From the NCBI GenBank assembly GCA_947561715.1, contig OX387198.1, positions 14,880,001-14,944,000 on the forward strand: a stretch of 64,000 nucleotides of DNA, given 5' to 3'. Shown one piece after another: positions 1 to 50,883 of this stretch. Within the stretch, counting starts at the first letter, position 1; the number at the start of each line of letters is the position of its first letter. Origin of the DNA: Ascidia mentula (lineage: Eukaryota; Chordata; Ascidiacea; Phlebobranchia; Ascidiidae). Made by a program: the position numbers and the translations under genes. The notes under the pieces are model-generated. The model was not told the origin of the DNA. It did no database searches and saw only the letters and a list, made by a program, of their open reading frames with translations.

Positions 1-1
1 A

Positions 2-1118
2 TATGGTGGAAAACAAGGTGGTGGTGGTGGTTATGGAGGTGGTGGCTATGGTGGAGGTGGTGGCGGTGGCGGCGGCAGCTACAGTGGGGGCGGCAGCTAC
101 AGAGGTGGGGGCGGCAGCTACAGAGGTGGGGGCGGCGGCTACGGAAGTGGCGGCGGCTATGGAGGTGGTGGCGGTTATGGTGGAGGTGGAAGAGACGGAG
201 GCTACCGAGGAGGTAGAAATTACGAAGGTAATTCATCATACTGAATGCTGCAATGCCTGTAAATACAATGTACACAAGTTAAAACACAACTATTTTACAA
301 TTGTTTTTCTTTTTTTGTAAGCAATGTACCTATTACACCTAGAGCTTAGTACATTATATTATAATACATGAACAGTTTTATTTTACATATATTTGCCATG
401 GAGTTATCTGTTTAATTTGTTAATTTTATTAGCCACTTCATGCATGTACTTGTCAGGTTTGGCACAGTAAACTTACAAACCTGGCTGGGATTTTTGCCAG
501 GCACTGTTTAAGGTTTTGCCTAAAAACACCTTTGGCCTGACATACTTTGTTTATTTAACTAACTACTTGTAAGCGTATTTGTAGTGTTTGGATTGCAGTA
601 GATCAGATATACATTTATTTTATCAGGGACTTTCCACCTCCAGTTAGTCGTATATTAAATGGCGCGTGGTTTAGAATTTACTGTCTGTCGATATGAACCT
701 TCTTTGAACGGCCCTAAGTGTCCTTAATGCCGAGTGGAGTAATTCACGAGGTACATAGAAAATACCGTGGAGCAAGGACTCCCCAAGAATTTATTGCCTG
801 TTACCTAAGGTAAGATGGCCAACACTAAATGTTAGTTGTATCAAGATTAAGTTCAGGCAAACTTTATCCATGTGTTTATAGTTAGTAATCACCAAGGGGC
901 AAAACTGGTACTGGTCTGTATGTAATTTTTGTTTTTACATTGTATTTTTACAGTCATTAGCAAACTAATTTATAAAATTTAAAGGTTTGTATATTAATAC
1001 ATGTTTTTGAACACATTGCCCTGGAATATTTTACAACCTTAGTAACACACTTTTTTTTGTTAAAACAGGAAATAGTCGCTATGGTGATCGTGATGGAAGT
1101 AATTATGATAATTATTAG
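2..1118 (+). CDS. Glycine-rich RRM RNA-binding protein, 3' end (CIRBP/RBM3/GRP-like)
   Basis: Only the 3' end is in the window. Positions 2-227 encode a Gly/Tyr/Arg-rich tail (GGGGY, GGGSYRGG repeats) like the low-complexity tails of CIRBP/RBM3 and GRP proteins. The donor GAAG|gtaatt at 227/228 joins in phase 1 to 1069-1118, giving the ending EGNSRYGDRDGSNYDNY. Reading through the donor instead gives a short ending (EGNSSY, stop 242-244), so intron retention makes a second C-terminus. A cassette exon lies inside the intron at 627-809. The family binds RNA and regulates mRNA stability, translation and splicing. The RRM is off-window; the call rests on the tail and on the cassette exon shared with the B-type genes near 23 and 31 kb, which lie on the opposite strand. 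Confidence 0.75.
627..809 (+). other. Cassette (poison) exon in glycine-rich RRM gene, copy 1
   Basis: The acceptor is tttattttatcag|GG (AG at 625-626) and the donor is CCTAAG|gtaagatgg (after 809), so this is a 183-nt exon. Spliced in after 227 it adds about ten residues and then stops at TAA 656-658. That leaves about 150 nt to the next exon junction, enough to expect nonsense-mediated decay. Its first 96 nt are identical to the exon at 31581-31765, on the other strand about 31 kb away, and nearly so to 23237-23421. The flanking intron, apart from about 18 nt at the acceptor, does not align. Inclusion in mRNA is inferred. Confidence 0.7.
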
Positions 1119-18211: not shown

Positions 18212-19564
18212 TTAGTAGCCTTTATATCCTCCCCCATAACCTTGATCATCGTAGTAACCACGGCCACCTCTTCCACCTTCATAATCATCATCTGGAATTT
18301 GTAATGTTGTTTTAAATCCAGTTTTTTAAATAATTATTACATCTTTTGTATGTGGGTACACTACACTAATAGAATTGTTATTCGGCATTTTAAAGTGTTT
18401 ATATGTTGTAAAATAACAGTTTAAGCATATATTCATTTGAAGATAAATTATCAATATAGGTCACTGGGCGTTAACAGAAATTTTCACAGTAGGCAGTCCC
18501 GCTAGTTATGAAAGTTATGTCACCACAATGTAATCGGGACTCTTACCTTACTGGGTCATAAACACAAAATACTCAGGAGGTCATGCTCCACCATTTTTTC
18601 TATGTGCCTTGTGTTTTATTCCTCTCGGATTACCAAGAGACTAAGCGTTTGTCTGTTCGTAGGAACCGACAGTTAGGGTTACAATGGCCGTGGCCAGTGG
18701 TGGATTCGTATTTACTTAGCAAGGGGGAAATTCTCGGGTAGGGGAAGGTCTGATAAAATAACAAATGACTGATATAAAAGCAAGAAAACACAGTGATTTT
18801 GCTACAAACAGTTGTAAGGAAAAAAGTTAACAGTATACCACAGAAAAGAGTTTAAAACAATATGTACAAAAGTTCTTTATTCCTATGCATATGGCAATAT
18901 ATGTATTTAACTGTACAGAAACAGTAAAATTTCATGAAAGTATTAGAGACCTATGCATGCATTTCAGCTCAAGATATGAATTCTTACCTCGTCCATATCC
19001 CCCGCTGCTGTCATATCTTTGTCCACCTTCATAGTCGTTATACTCTCCACCTCCTCCATGATTGTAGCGACCACTGCCTCCTCCACCATATCCACCGCCA
19101 TCCCTGTACCCATCACCTCCATAACCACCACCACCATAGCTACCACCTCGACCACCATAGCCGCCACCACCCCGACCACCATAGCCACCTCCACCTCCTC
19201 TATAGCCACCACCTCCTCCGCCATAGCCACCACCTCCTCCGCCATAGCCACCACCTCCTCCGCCATAACCACCCCCATCCCCATAGCGACCGCCACCTCC
19301 TCCTCCACCACCCTTGTTCTTTCTCTCTTCAGCATCCCTAACTGTCAATGCCCTGTTTTTGAATTCGTGTCCGTGCATTGCTTCTTTTGCTGCATTCGCA
19401 TCTCCAGCAGAGGTGAAGCTTACAAAGCCAAACCCACGTGACTTATCTGTTGAACGATCATAAATTATCGAGGCCTCCACAACCTCGCCAAATTCTGTGA
19501 AGAGGTTTCTCAGATCTGATTCCACTGCGATAAAGGGCAAATTCCCTACAAACAGCCGTGTCAT
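18212..19564 (-). CDS. Glycine-rich RRM RNA-binding protein, type A, copy 1
   Basis: Exons 18988-19564 and 18212-18291 join in phase 1 (GGACGAG|gtaaga, then cag|ATGATGATT) to about 218 aa. Residues 1-80 form one RRM with RNP2 LFVGNL and RNP1 KSRGFGFVSF. The rest is a Gly/Tyr/Arg repeat tail (GGGGGGYGG, GGRGGGGYGG) ending in DDQGYGGGYKGY. This is the CIRBP/RBM3/plant-GRP architecture, a cold- or stress-linked RNA chaperone and regulator of mRNA fate. ATG 19564 follows tttccgccatt and fits the family start. A longer frame begins at 19606, but that would read through an acceptor-like ttgttctag that may receive a spliced leader. A poison-type exon sits at 18547-18749. A second copy at 28 kb is broken. 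Confidence 0.85.
18547..18749 (-). other. Cassette (poison) exon, type A copy 1
   Basis: Minus-strand acceptor ttattttatcag|ACC and donor CCCAGTAAG|gtaagag. Joined to the A1 main exon it reads about 12 residues (DLPLPENFPLAK) and stops at 18712-18714, leaving 165 nt to the donor. It aligns, with divergence, to the type B exons, most clearly at both ends and around the GGAG...CTCC stem. It is therefore an old relative rather than a recent copy. Confidence 0.65.
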
Positions 19565-22884: not shown

Positions 22885-24630
22885 TTAGTAATCATCTTGT
22901 GAGTAATTGCTTCTACCACTTCTACCATATCCATCGCCACCTAGTGCATATAAAAAAACATTTGATCAAAGATTTGAGATGCCCATGAATAAACGTAGCA
23001 GGCTTTTTCAGAGTCAACATTTTTGTGGCTGCAAAATAACAATGTGTAGTTATCTCTAAAACACAGTATACCCAAACATGTTAAACTTAAAAAAAAATAA
23101 ATCCGATCAACAACAAGAAAGAATATTACCTGTTTTAATGAATTGGTATAAAAGTTATATAGCCTACTCATAGTATGTATTTAAACATATAGCGCTAATA
23201 TAACCTATTATCATGGTGTAGCCAAGGCCGTCTTACCTTACATTTGTAACACACAATAAACTCTTGGAGTTCTTGCTCCGTGGTATTTTCTATGTACCTC
23301 GTGAATTACTCCACTTGGCATTAAAGACACTTAGGGCCGTTCAAAGAAGGTTCATATCGACAGACAGTAAATTCTAAACCACGCGCCATTTAATATACGA
23401 CTAACTGGAGGTGAACAGTCCCTGATAAAATAAATGTATAATACTGACGTTTAATTCAACTGCACAATTATCAGTTCAAATATTACTCAAATAGTTAAAA
23501 CGAAAAAAATTATTGGCGCTAAATATGCACAGAGATACCAGTCTTACCTGTGCTCGGGGGCCTTATAATTTGCAATTTTTATTTTCATAAAAAAATCCAA
23601 ACATGTACTAGCCTTAAATTTAGGTGAGAGTTACATCTTAGTGTTTGATTTTAAGATTTTTTAAACCAACGGTTTTAGGTGTCTTTTTTACAGTATCAAA
23701 TAATAAAAAAGATGTTTTCATGAGGGATCCAGCTGAACGAACAAGTGAAAATTGCCCAGTTTTATATTTAATTAAGAAAGTAGTACACAGCTACCAAAAG
23801 TAAAAAGCATGGAAAAAATACATCTGATACATATACCAGATTGGAAAAAAATGTCGTGTTTTTAGCGAAAATTTACCGATAATCCGAAAAATATTAATGA
23901 GCTAATGCATTAACATACAAAAAAACGTTGTGATTGTCCACAATTAACGATCACCGAAACGAAATCCTTTGCGCAAAAAACAAACTTTCCAATCCGGTAC
24001 ATATATTGATAATGGTTGTGTGGAGTAAGATTTTTTATAAATTTATATATTTGTTTTTACAACCAATTAACATGAAAACAATAATATAGCACATATGATG
24101 GTAAATAATTCTTAATGATTTTAACTACCTCTGTAGCCTCCTCCATCATCATATCGATTGCCGCCATGACGATTGCCACCACCCCCACCACCACCTTCAT
24201 ATCCATCACCTCCCCTGTATCCTCCTCCTCCTCCACGACCACCACCATAGCCCCCTCCACCATAGGACCCACCGCCATAGCCCCCACCGCCATAACCTCC
24301 TCCACCTCCACCATAACCTCCTCCACCTCCACCATAACCTCCGCTGCGATAACCCCCTCCACCACCGCCGCCACGTTTTGGTTTTGCTTCACGAACTGTC
24401 AGCTTTCTTCCTTGTAAGTCATATTCATGCAATTCATCTTTAGCTTTTAGCGCATCATCAGAACTCTTGAACGTGACAAATCCGAATCCCCTGGACTTTC
24501 CAGTGTCACGTTCAAGCACAATCACTACATCATCCACAGGTCCATTGCGTTCAAATAATTCGGCTAAGTCTCCCTCCGTTGTTTCGTAGTCAAGATTTCC
24601 AACAAACAACTTGTTTTTTTCATCTCCCAT
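22885..24630 (-). CDS. Glycine-rich RRM RNA-binding protein, type B, copy 1
   Basis: Exons 24129-24630 and 22885-22940 join in phase 1 (TACAGAG|gtagtt, then ctag|GTGGCGATGG) to 185 aa. An RRM spans residues 6-85, with RNP2 KLFVGNL and RNP1 KSRGFGFVTF. A Gly/Tyr/Arg tail (SGGYGGGGGGYGG) follows, then the spliced ending GDGYGRSGRSNYSQDDY. Retaining the intron gives RGS and a stop. The start MGDEKNKLF is unambiguous and shared with copy 2. The same CIRBP/GRP-like role is expected. The intron of about 1.2 kb contains the cassette exon 23237-23421. Compared with copy 2, the RRM has several replacements (ERNGPVDDV against QRSGSVDSV), so the copies are diverging in protein while the cassette exon hardly changes. 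Confidence 0.88.
23237..23421 (-). other. Cassette (poison) exon, type B copy 1
   Basis: Acceptor tttatcag|GGACTG, donor AATGTAAG|gtaagac, 185 nt. After the B1 main exon it reads GTVHLQLVVY and stops (TAA), leaving about 150 nt to the donor. It is nearly identical to copies at 627-809 and 31581-31765. The hairpin GGAGcaagaaCTCC and the stem GGTAcatagaaaaTACC are visible. Confidence 0.7.
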
Positions 24631-26924: not shown

Positions 26925-27455
26925 CAATATTTTGCTATGGAACAACCGACGAATTTAAGAGCACCATAAATCTGTTTTGGTGCAGAAATCGTGTTTGGAG
27001 ATTGGTTATGTTTGGTTAAAAGGTTTGGATAACAGCGCTTTAAATTAAGAGGCAACATATGATTCTCATTATCTATCATACCCGCCCCGCCCATCCAATA
27101 TTTAGGATATGGTAACGCTTTTATTTCTTTCCCATTAGGGCTGTTGTTATCTTCCCGATAAGGGTTATACCTCTGGTCGCCCAAAGGTTCATAACTATGT
27201 TGGCTTTTTCAGGGAAGGGAGAAAGTTCAATTCAATTATTTCCAGATCCTTTTATTACCACCATAAGTCCGAAGTCCAGTATGTTGAAAGGGTTTATATT
27301 GCATGGATTCAGCGATTCGGGCATACGAAATAGGCAGAGAACTTTTCCATATTCACTTTGCAATCAGTCATTTCACCAAAGTCCTATAAAATTTGAAAGA
27401 TTTTTGAGAAATCAGTATCCGAACCTTTTGTAAAAACAATGGTATCGTCTGCAAA
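26925..27455 (-). mobile_element. Decayed LINE reverse transcriptase fragment
   Basis: The minus strand reads LFADDTIVFTKGSDTDFSKI, a stop, then DFGEMTDCKVNMEKFSA. This is the FADD catalytic box and following segment of an L1-like reverse transcriptase. Several stops and frame changes follow toward 26925. It abuts the left edge of duplication unit 2, where gene A2 should have its last exon. Confidence 0.6.
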
Positions 27456-27649
27456 TAGGGATAATTTTTATTCATTATTCAGCATTTTAAAGTGTTTATA
27501 TGTTGTAAAATAACAGTTTAGGCATATATTCATGTGAAGATAAATTATCAAGATGAATATAGGTCACTGGGCGTTAACAGAAATTTTCACAGTAGGCAGT
27601 CCCGCTAGTTATGAAAAGTTATGTCACCACAATGTATCGGGACTCTTAC

Positions 27650-27853
27650 CTTACTGGGTCATAAACACAAAATACTCAGGAGGTCATGCTCCACCATTTT
27701 TTCTATGTGCCTTGTGTTTTATTCCTCTCGGATTACCAAGAGACTAAGCGTTTGTCTGTTCGTAGGAACCGACAGTTAGGGTCTACAATGGCCGTGGCCA
27801 GTGGTGGATTCGAGTTTACTTAGCAAGGGGGAAATTCTCGGGTAGGGGAAGGT
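27650..27853 (-). other. Cassette (poison) exon, type A copy 2
   Basis: Same acceptor and donor as 18547-18749, 204 nt, with the same early in-frame TAA. Intact although the gene carrying it is broken, which fits recent duplication. Confidence 0.6.
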
Positions 27854-28092
27854 CTGATAAAATAACAAATGACTGATATAAAAGCAAGAAAACACAGTGA
27901 TTTTGCTACAAACAGTTGTAAGGAAAACAAGTTAAAAGTTAACCACAGAAAAGAGTTTAAAACAATAAGTACAAAAGTTCTTTATTCCTATGCATATGGC
28001 AATATATGTATTTAACTGTACAGAAACAGTAAAATTTCATGAAAGTATTAGAGACCTATGCATGCATTTCAGCTCAAGATATGAATTCTTAC

Positions 28093-28652
28093 CTCGTCCA
28101 TATCCCCCACTGCTGTCATATCTTTGTCCACCTTCATAGTCGTTATACTCTCCACCTCCTGCATGATTGTAGCGACCACTGCCTCCTCCACCATACCCAC
28201 CGCCATCCCTGTACCCATCACCTCCATAACCACCACCACCATCACCACCATAAGCCACCACCTCGACCACCATAACCGCCACCACCCCGACCACCATAGC
28301 CACCACCACCTCCTCTATAGCCACCACCTCCTCCGCTATAGCCACCACCTCCATAACCACCACCATCCCCATAGCGACCACCTCCTCCTCCTCCACCACC
28401 CCTGTTCTTTTTCTCTTCAGCATCATTAACTGTCAATGCCCTGTTTTTGAATTCGTGTCCGTGCATTGCTTCTTTCGCTGCATTCGCATCTCCAGGAGAG
28501 GTGAAGCTTACAAAGCCAAACCCACGTGACTTATCTGTTGAACGATCATATATTATCGAGGCCTCCACAACCTCCCCAAATTCTGTGAAGAGGTTTCTCA
28601 GATCTGAGTCCACTGCGATAAAGGGCAAATTCCCTACAAACAGCCGTGTCAT
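28093..28652 (-). pseudogene. Glycine-rich RRM gene, type A, copy 2 (broken)
   Basis: The RRM from ATG 28652 is intact (LFVGNLPF, KSRGFGFVSF) and close to A1. In the Gly tail the frame slips near 28250: GGC TTA TGG TGG TGA replaces GGC TAT GGT, ending the protein at about 137 aa with GGLWW. Behind the slip the old frame continues (GGDGYRDGGGYGG) to the donor at 28093. The last coding exon is missing because homology with unit 1 ends at 27475. If the main intron is still spliced, the stop lies about 150 nt before the junction and the mRNA should be unstable. An alternative is a short RRM protein with a trimmed tail. Confidence 0.75.
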
Positions 28653-31225: not shown

Positions 31226-32942
31226 TTAGTAATCATCTCTTGAGTGATTGCTTCTGCCTCCACCTCTTCTACCATATCCATCGCCACCTAGTACATATAA
31301 AAAAACATTTGATCAAAGATTTGAGATGCCCATGAATAAATGTAGCAGGCTTTTTGAAAGTCGACATTTTTGTGGCTGCAAAATAACAATGTGTAGTTAT
31401 CTCTAAAACACGGTATACCCAGACATGTTAAACTTCAAAAAAAAAAATCCAATCAACAACAAGAAAGAATATTACCTGTCATAATGAATTGGTATAAAAT
31501 ATAGCCTACTCATAGTATGTATTTAAACATATATAAAGCTAATATAACCTATTATCATGGTGTAGCCAAGGCCGTCTTACCTTACATTGGTAACACACAA
31601 TAAACTCTTGGAGTTCTTGCTCCGTGGCATTTTCTATGTACCTCGTGAATTACTCCACTTGGCATTAAAGACACTTAGGGCCGTTCAAAGAAGGTTCATA
31701 TCGACAGACAGTAAATTCTAAACCACGCGCCATTTAATATACGACTAACTGGAGGTGGAAAGTCCCTGATAAAATAAATGTATAATACTGACGTTTAATT
31801 CAACTGCACAATTATCAGTTCAAATATTACTCAAATAGTTAAAACGAAAAAAATTATTGGCGCTAAATATGCACGGAGATACCAGTCTTACCTGTGCTCG
31901 GGGGCCTTATAATTTGCAATTTTTATTTTTATAAAAAAATCCAAACATGTACTAGCCTTAAATTTAGGTGAGAGTTACATCTTAGTGTTTGATTTTAAGA
32001 TTTTTTAAACCAACGGTTTTAGGTGTCTTTTTTAAAGTATCAAATAATAAAAAAGATGTTTACATGAGGGATCCAGCTGAACTAACAAGTGAAAATTGCC
32101 CAGTTTTATATTTAATTAAGAAAGTAGTACACAGCTACCAAAAGTAAAAAGCATGGAAAAAATACATCTGATACATATACCAGATTGGAAAAAATGTCGT
32201 TTTTTTAGCGAAAATTTACAATATTAATGAGCTAATGCATTAACATACAAAAAAACGTTGTGATTGTCCACAATTAACGATCACCGAAACGAAATCCTTT
32301 GCGCAAAAAACAAACTTTCCAATCCGGTACATATATTGATAATGGTTGTGTGGCGTAAGATTTTTTCTAAATTTATATATTTGTTTTTACAACCAATTAA
32401 CATGAAAACAATAATATAGCACATATGATGGTAAATAATTCTTAATGATTTTAATTACCTCTGTAGCCTCCTCCATCATCATATTGACGACCGCCGCCAT
32501 GACGATTGCCATAGTCACCACCCCCACCACCACCGTCATATCCACCACCTCCCCTGTATCCTCCTCCACGACCACCACCGCCGCCATAGCCCCCTCCACC
32601 ATAGCCCCCACCGCCATAACCTCCGCCGCCATAACCTCCGCCGCCATAACCTCCGCCGCCATAACCCCCTCCACCACCGCCGCCACGTTTTGGTTTTGCT
32701 TCACGAACTGTCAGCTTTCTTCCTGCGAACTCATGTTCATGTAAATCATTTATAGCTTTTTGCACATCATCAGAATTGTTGAACGTGACAAATCCGAATC
32801 CCCTGGACTTTCCAGTTTCACGATCAAGCACAATCACTACCGAATCCACAGATCCACTGCGTTGAAATAATTCGGCTAAGTCGTCCTCCGATGTTTCGTA
32901 GTCAAGATTTCCAACAAACAACTTGTTTTTTTCATCTCCCAT
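31226..32942 (-). CDS. Glycine-rich RRM RNA-binding protein, type B, copy 2
   Basis: Exons 32459-32942 and 31226-31287 join in phase 1 to 181 aa: MGDEKNKLF start, RRM with KLFVGNL and KSRGFGFVTF, tail of GGGGYGGGGYGG repeats, ending GDGYGRRGGGRSNHSRDDY. Retention of the intron would give RGN and a stop. Structure, phases and cassette exon match B1. The RRM differs at about a dozen residues and the Gly tail differs in length and repeat unit, so both copies look like functional, separately evolving genes. Confidence 0.88.
31581..31765 (-). other. Cassette (poison) exon, type B copy 2
   Basis: Acceptor tttatcag|GGACTTTCC, donor CAATGTAAG|gtaagac, 185 nt. The first 96 nt equal those of the exon at 627-809. 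It has the same early TAA in the joined frame. Confidence 0.7.
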
Positions 32943-50811: not shown

Positions 50812-50883
50812 TGCGTCGACCGGGAGTCGAACCCGGAACTAGTGCTTGGAAGGCACCAATGCTAACCGTTACACCATCGACGC
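50812..50883 (-). tRNA. tRNA-Gly (anticodon TCC)
   Basis: On the minus strand a 72-nt cloverleaf. The acceptor stem is GCGTCGA/TCGACGC with discriminator A. The D arm holds the A box TGGTGTAACGGTTAG, the anticodon loop is CCTTCCAA with TCC, and the T arm holds the B box GGGTTCGACTCCC. A Pol III stop (TTTT) lies just downstream (50807-50810). No intron. It reads GGA codons. Confidence 0.96.

Follow-up and report, generated by a model that had tools for sequence, protein, structure and literature searches.

The last intron of each of six clustered CIRBP/GRP-like genes of Ascidia mentula contains an exon-like block that we interpret, with a probability of about 80%, as a cassette poison exon that lowers the output of its host gene through splicing and nonsense-mediated decay (NMD). 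Judged by its sequence, the block is a well-supported candidate for such an exon, common by descent across the cluster, and probably acts as an on/off switch at the level of splicing, a type of control already described in mammals and plants. The stretch of DNA that was analysed (hereafter, the window) is 64,000 nucleotides long and corresponds to C2:14880001-14944000 of a 195.8 Mb assembly of 79 contigs.

A search of the genome for RRM domains placed six glycine-rich, single-RRM genes, denoted g0 to g5, in one cluster of about 37 kb (C2:14876129-14912942), and these are the best 6 of 35 RRM matches. A preliminary description of this DNA had counted five such genes; this is correct for the window, but the cluster includes a sixth, g0, located upstream of it. 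Genes g0 and g1 are on the forward strand, and g2 to g5 are on the reverse strand. In all six, a single exon encodes both the RRM and the Gly-rich region, and the block-bearing intron is the only intron seen within the coding region, for the coding part that was read. The RRM/Gly exon ends in phase 1 in g0, g1, g2, g3 and g5, and by count in phase 2 in g4. The features of the cluster, with the evidence for each, are the following, where A and B denote two types of block:

Upstream of the window, forward strand: g0 block, 187 nt (sequence, frame)
Before the window, forward strand: g1 ATG at C2:14879735 and RRM at C2:14879744-14879992 (RRM search, frame)
1..227, forward strand: 3' part of the g1 RRM and Gly-rich exon (frame); donor AAG/GTAATT after 227, phase 1
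627..809, forward strand: g1 block, A type, 183 nt; stop at 656-658, 151 nt before the donor
725..815, forward strand: core of the g1 block in common with the B-type block (g1 vs g2, 72% over 94 columns, E 2e-8)
1069..1118, forward strand: g1 last coding exon (frame); the product of block skipping ends in GNSRYGDRDGSNYDNY and a stop
18212..18291, reverse strand: g2 last coding exon (frame)
18547..18749, reverse strand: g2 block, B type, 203 nt; stop at 18712-18714, 165 nt before the donor
18988..19564, reverse strand: g2 RRM and Gly-rich exon (frame; Pfam RRM_1)
22885..22940, reverse strand: g3 last coding exon (frame)
23237..23421, reverse strand: g3 block, A type, 185 nt; stop at 23390-23392, 153 nt before the donor
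24129..24630, reverse strand: g3 RRM and Gly-rich exon (frame; Pfam RRM_1)
27650..27853, reverse strand: g4 copy of the block, B type, 204 nt (sequence, frame)
28093..28652, reverse strand: g4 RRM and Gly-rich exon, frame-shifted, a broken copy (frame)
31226..31287, reverse strand: g5 last coding exon (frame)
31581..31765, reverse strand: g5 block, A type, 185 nt; stop at 31734-31736, 153 nt before the donor
32459..32942, reverse strand: g5 RRM and Gly-rich exon (frame; Pfam RRM_1)

The four proteins scanned against Pfam each contain one RRM_1 domain plus a Gly-rich tail, and their relatives include Clavelina RbpA/B and a Ciona protein named cold-inducible RNA-binding protein. By these features, the host genes are assigned to the same family as mammalian RBM3 and CIRBP, an assignment made at the family level only. 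In the RRM tree, g1 joins g3/g5 with support of 92/91, and the other relationships are mostly unresolved (2 of the 19 inner branches starred). The pairs g3/g5 (RRM dS 0.04) and g2/g4 (dS 0.06) are recent duplicates, and the five copies in the window are thus not five independent witnesses. The RRMs of g3 and g5 (24373-24630 and 32685-32942, both on the reverse strand) show an unusual pattern of their own, with dN of 0.116 exceeding dS of 0.042 and none of the 31 fourfold sites differing, and the introns of the two genes are 96% identical despite these replacement-rich differences; either positive selection on one of the RRMs or patchy gene conversion could account for this pattern.

Each of the six genes carries its block, of 183-204 nt, in the last intron, after the Gly-rich exon; the five blocks in the window, of 183, 203, 185, 204 and 185 nt, are located where they were originally reported. 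A clean acceptor, TTTTATCAG, and a strong donor, AAG/GTAAGA, had been described for all window copies and are indeed present in each; the same donor is found in g0, the acceptor of which is TTTTTGCTAG. All these splice sites are predictions from reading of the sequence. When the block is joined to the Gly-rich exon in g0, g1, g2, g3 and g5, the frame runs for 10-14 codons and then reaches a stop 143-165 nt before the donor (151-165 nt in the four intact genes of the window), whereas when the block is skipped the last exon of these five genes is read in frame. The early stop therefore stands, but the figures initially given for it, 10-13 codons and 150-185 nt, do not, and neither does its attribution to every copy: in g4, a frame shift in the Gly-rich exon puts the stop 149 nt before the block. 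Thus, a premature stop more than about 50 nt upstream of the next junction combined with in-frame skipping is found in five of the six genes, g4 being the exception. All six blocks contain stops in all three frames.

The broken gene g4 differs in other respects as well. Its last exon was not found with five exact patterns taken from the g2 last exon and 3' end, which matched g2 only and which a diverged exon would escape. The g4 block is 99% like that of g2, a split too recent to be informative. Within the g4 region (27000-28652, reverse strand), the sequence downstream of the gene copy resembles, by eye, a decayed reverse transcriptase fragment.

Under the proposed mechanism, skipping of the block would fuse the phase-1 end of the Gly-rich exon to the last coding exon, giving the full protein, whereas inclusion would append 10-14 unrelated residues and a stop that precedes a further junction. 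By the exon-junction rule, which we assume to hold for this animal, the block-containing mRNA would then be routed to NMD; UPF1 and SMG1 domains are present in the genome. The conserved stretch, most of which follows the stop and which in the most diverged pair comprises the last ~90-105 nt and the donor, likely holds the binding sites that would set the level of inclusion. Exon use, the ensuing NMD and, as originally proposed, control by the proteins of the genes themselves or by temperature are inferences.

The skip form appears to be the canonical protein because the C-terminus that it gives in g1, ...GSNYDNY, resembles those of five of the seven Clavelina RbpA/RbpB proteins (P0012, P0014, P0017, P0239 and P0240), which end in ...NYDGGRYDNY; another, P0242, ends in DRYSDRY. 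The block exon is absent from all seven Clavelina proteins, in a database the 90% clustering of which would hide short tail variants. The 114 aa protein P0139 was considered as a candidate alternative-exon isoform and discounted: its tail starts with GKS, as would be expected from read-through of a GGTAAGT donor.

An included block could also serve as an alternative terminal exon, such that a poly(A) site in or after it, or escape from NMD, would give rise to a stable isoform with a different C-terminus. Potential polyadenylation hexamers are available, namely, AATAAA in the g2 and g4 blocks and ATTAAA in those of g1, g3 and g5, and, within 300 nt past the block, ATTAAA in g0 and g3 and AATAAA in g4. 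The two products would differ in a short tail only, and for the long form of hamster CIRP, with a replaced C-terminus, a dominant negative role has been proposed, according to PMC7590145. However, the g0 block contains neither hexamer, the tails that inclusion would add show no relationship among g0, the A type and the B type, and one of the most strongly conserved parts of the block is the donor, for which a terminal exon would have no use. We consider this explanation distinctly unlikely, and a poison exon remains the preferred reading of the block.

The block had been called near-invariant, which is accurate within groups (94-98% identity among g1, g3 and g5, and 99.0% between g2 and g4) but not between them. 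Specifically, g1 is 93.9% identical to both g3 and g5 (170/181 each, with 6 gap columns), and g3 is 97.8% identical to g5. In contrast, g0 is 71-76% identical to g1, g3 and g5 overall (75.6% to g3), rising over the last ~103 nt of the block to 99% for g3 and 84% for g1, and the A and B blocks are only 56-60% identical overall, with clear homology in a core of ~90-105 nt (72%) that extends to 6 nt past the donor. Three islands are identical in all six copies: ACATAGAAAA, GGAGCA, and the donor with TAAGGTAAGA.

Comparison of the whole introns, which span 696-1188 nt (that of g4 being compared only to 350 nt past the block, given that its last exon was not found), delineates the limits of this conservation. 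The g1-g3 and g1-g5 comparisons each give a single match that begins 19 nt ahead of the block and ends 11 nt beyond the donor; thus, as originally reported, the remainder of the g1 and g5 introns (841 and 1171 nt, respectively) does not align. The 96 nt reported as identical between these two blocks belong to a perfect match of 115 nt, the first 19 nt of which precede the block. The g0 intron matches those of g1, g3 and g5 in the 3' part of the block, up to position +11 or +12, and in a 15-nt island within the block. Between g2 or g4 and g1, g3 or g5, there is a single match of ~90-105 nt ending at donor position +6 (E 2e-8 to 4e-8). Comparison of g0 with g2 or g4 yields only a 17-nt match (E 0.005-0.006) outside the B block, so that the homology of g0 with the B type rests on the score of the block alignment. 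The Smith-Waterman scores of the g2 block with g0, g1 and g5 are 62, 68 and 74, whereas 500 dinucleotide shuffles per pair scored at most 42, 34 and 30, respectively. The likeness of the A and B blocks is beyond chance.

Nothing was found in favor of the possibility that the block is a chance exon-like sequence or a dispersed repeat, the latter being the outcome that the preliminary description itself had named as fatal to its proposal. Whole-block searches of the 196 Mb genome, a type of search that can miss copies, yielded four matches with the g1 query and two with the g2 query, all within the cluster. The core pattern, with up to 3 mismatches allowed, occurs at 24 genomic sites, of which five are exact and one has a single mismatch, all six being in the cluster; there are none with 2 mismatches, and the remaining 18 have 3, compared with 22 sites for the reversed control. 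A dispersed repeat is therefore rejected at the sensitivity used, with no copy found elsewhere in the genome, and we regard this class of explanations as extremely improbable. A separate genome count with what we take to be the Ciona-type spliced leader sequence, followed by GT, gave 931 + 899 = 1830 copies and 0 + 0 for the reversed pattern, a contrast that by itself marks the animal as very probably an ascidian; among the matches listed, the copies at C1:15239664-15315846 are mostly 719-720 bases apart, with a few larger gaps.

The conservation of the block was gauged against the synonymous sites of the RRMs, which are at or near saturation among g0, g1, g3/g5 and g2/g4 (pS 0.64-0.95; dS 1.5-3.0 or not computable). 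Between g1 and g5, 10 of 18 fourfold sites differ, compared with 11 of 181 block positions (Fisher p 5e-7), and between g0 and g3, 10 of 18 fourfold sites differ vs 0 substitutions in 102 (p 4e-10), all these being comparisons of few sites in which synonymous positions are an imperfect neutral yardstick. For the recent pair g3-g5, the block (4/185) does not evolve significantly slower than the intron (about 43/1005; p 0.22, with counts derived from rounded identity). Thus, the block and its splice sites are conserved beyond the neutral expectation, between diverged paralogues only. The original proposal of a poison exon is supported by this combination of the anatomy of the block with conservation that spans the exon and its splice sites and then ends, in genes where the synonymous sites of the RRM are at or close to saturation; its description as old holds only relative to the duplications in this genome.

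Such a pattern could be mimicked by gene conversion among clustered paralogues, which would have spread a neutral or once-used block, so that the likeness would reflect recent copying rather than selection. The genes are all within 37 kb; g0 and g3 are 99% identical over 103 nt, including 73 consecutive matching positions, in a stretch where g1 differs from both; and one base state near the donor is common to g0 and g3 alone. On these grounds, and with g1 differing from g3 by 11 substitutions over the block, conversion may have contributed to the likeness of g0 and g3. However, the similarity among g0, g1, g3 and g5 (the g3-g5 pair apart) ends almost uniformly 11-12 nt beyond the donor, and that of g1 with g3 and g5 starts 19 nt before the block. 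End points at exon borders count against conversion because conversion tracts have no reason to stop there. Furthermore, the homology of A and B, at 72%, is too diverged for a recent event, yet ends 6 nt past the donor. The common donor-side end points are hard to explain by conversion alone, and as a general account of the block we find conversion unlikely; the retention of a poison exon is the interpretation that we favor.

The idea that the block is kept at the RNA level also gains support. The inclusion tail peptides of g0, A and B are unrelated, four of the six block lengths are not multiples of three, and indels of 1, 2 and 4 nt break the frame, so that RNA rather than peptide appears to be conserved, and a conserved peptide encoded by the block can be rejected. 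The conserved RNA does not appear to be a fold either. In the consensus structure of 23 pairs, none is changed on both sides, and the covariation term is +1.2; folding of the last ~105-110 nt of four individual copies gave z-scores of -0.65 (g1), -0.48 (g3), -0.97 (g2) and -2.16 (g0). The five window blocks had no match in Rfam at the gathering threshold. The sole Rfam match in the window at this threshold is a tRNA gene at 50812-50883 on the reverse strand. Pairing between the acceptor and the donor (7 bp including G-U, in all six copies) was set aside: 11% of simulated pairs, generated with base frequencies of our own choice, do likewise, and only about four of the copies are independent.

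An intron-borne structural RNA, such as a snoRNA, in place of an exon would fit the strong conservation of non-coding intron sequence and the mildly greater stability of one of the four folds, that of g0, compared with shuffles. Given that the other three folds are unremarkable, that there are neither compensatory pairs nor Rfam matches, and that the acceptor and the donor are themselves part of the conserved stretch, such an RNA is highly improbable. With no Rfam match, unremarkable folding and no covariation, it is the primary sequence that appears to be conserved, as would be the case if a regulated exon contained binding sites for proteins.

A bolder and rather doubtful extension of the poison-exon proposal is that the core is a common control site, such that the pre-mRNA of each gene would be bound, at the same ~105 nt element, by the proteins of the other family members, and the total output would be held constant or set by temperature across the paralogues. 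Under this tentative scenario, the element would be older than the cluster and would represent the chordate ancestor or counterpart of the vertebrate CIRBP poison exon. The age of the block and cross-regulation within the cluster make an interesting question, and comparison of the roughly four diverged versions of the block in the cluster would make it possible to delineate the functional core. In mammals, cold-shock RNA-binding proteins are already known to have poison exons under temperature control; a conserved one in an ascidian, an animal that takes on the temperature of the sea, would allow a test of whether the switch arose before the vertebrates.

A search of the open literature found no paper that combines poison exons and NMD in Ciona, nor one on alternative splicing of ascidian glycine-rich RNA-binding proteins, and the terms 'glycine-rich' and 'cold-inducible' do not occur in the available main text of one paper on ascidian alternative splicing (PMC10573349). 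In the Ciona ovary, CIRP protein is reported to be 1.6-fold lower at 22 C (PMC5550911), an observation made at the protein level that does not bear on splicing; this drop fits a warm-included poison exon and is no test of one.

The closest known parallel is exon 3a of mammalian RBM3, which, as described in PMC10165353 and PMC10350819, is found within intron 3, flanked by exons 3 and 4, is included in the warm and degraded by NMD, and is governed by exonic enhancers and silencers. As in RBM3, the ascidian block would be a stop-bearing cassette exon in a conserved intron of a related family with one RRM and a Gly-rich tail. However, the ascidian block is flanked by the Gly-rich exon and the last coding exon, and, since the former also encodes the RRM, the introns cannot be equated by number. 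Also, the temperature response and NMD have been demonstrated for RBM3, whereas the ascidian block is known from sequence and is compared by description. CIRBP, to which the ascidian genes are similar, contains a poison exon that is excluded on cooling (work cited in PMC10165353); the hamster CIRBP long form, which keeps the RRM and has its C-terminal residues replaced via an intronic stop (PMC7590145), is, unlike the ascidian block, described as intron retention. In Arabidopsis, the glycine-rich RRM paralogues AtGRP7 and AtGRP8 control their own and each other's alternative splicing, as presented in PMC3526319, the reference list of which includes a paper that names coupling to NMD in its title. 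AtGRP7 and AtGRP8 employ a cryptic 5' splice site within an intron, whereas the ascidian block would be a cassette exon, and we assume that the plant and ascidian switches are of independent origin.
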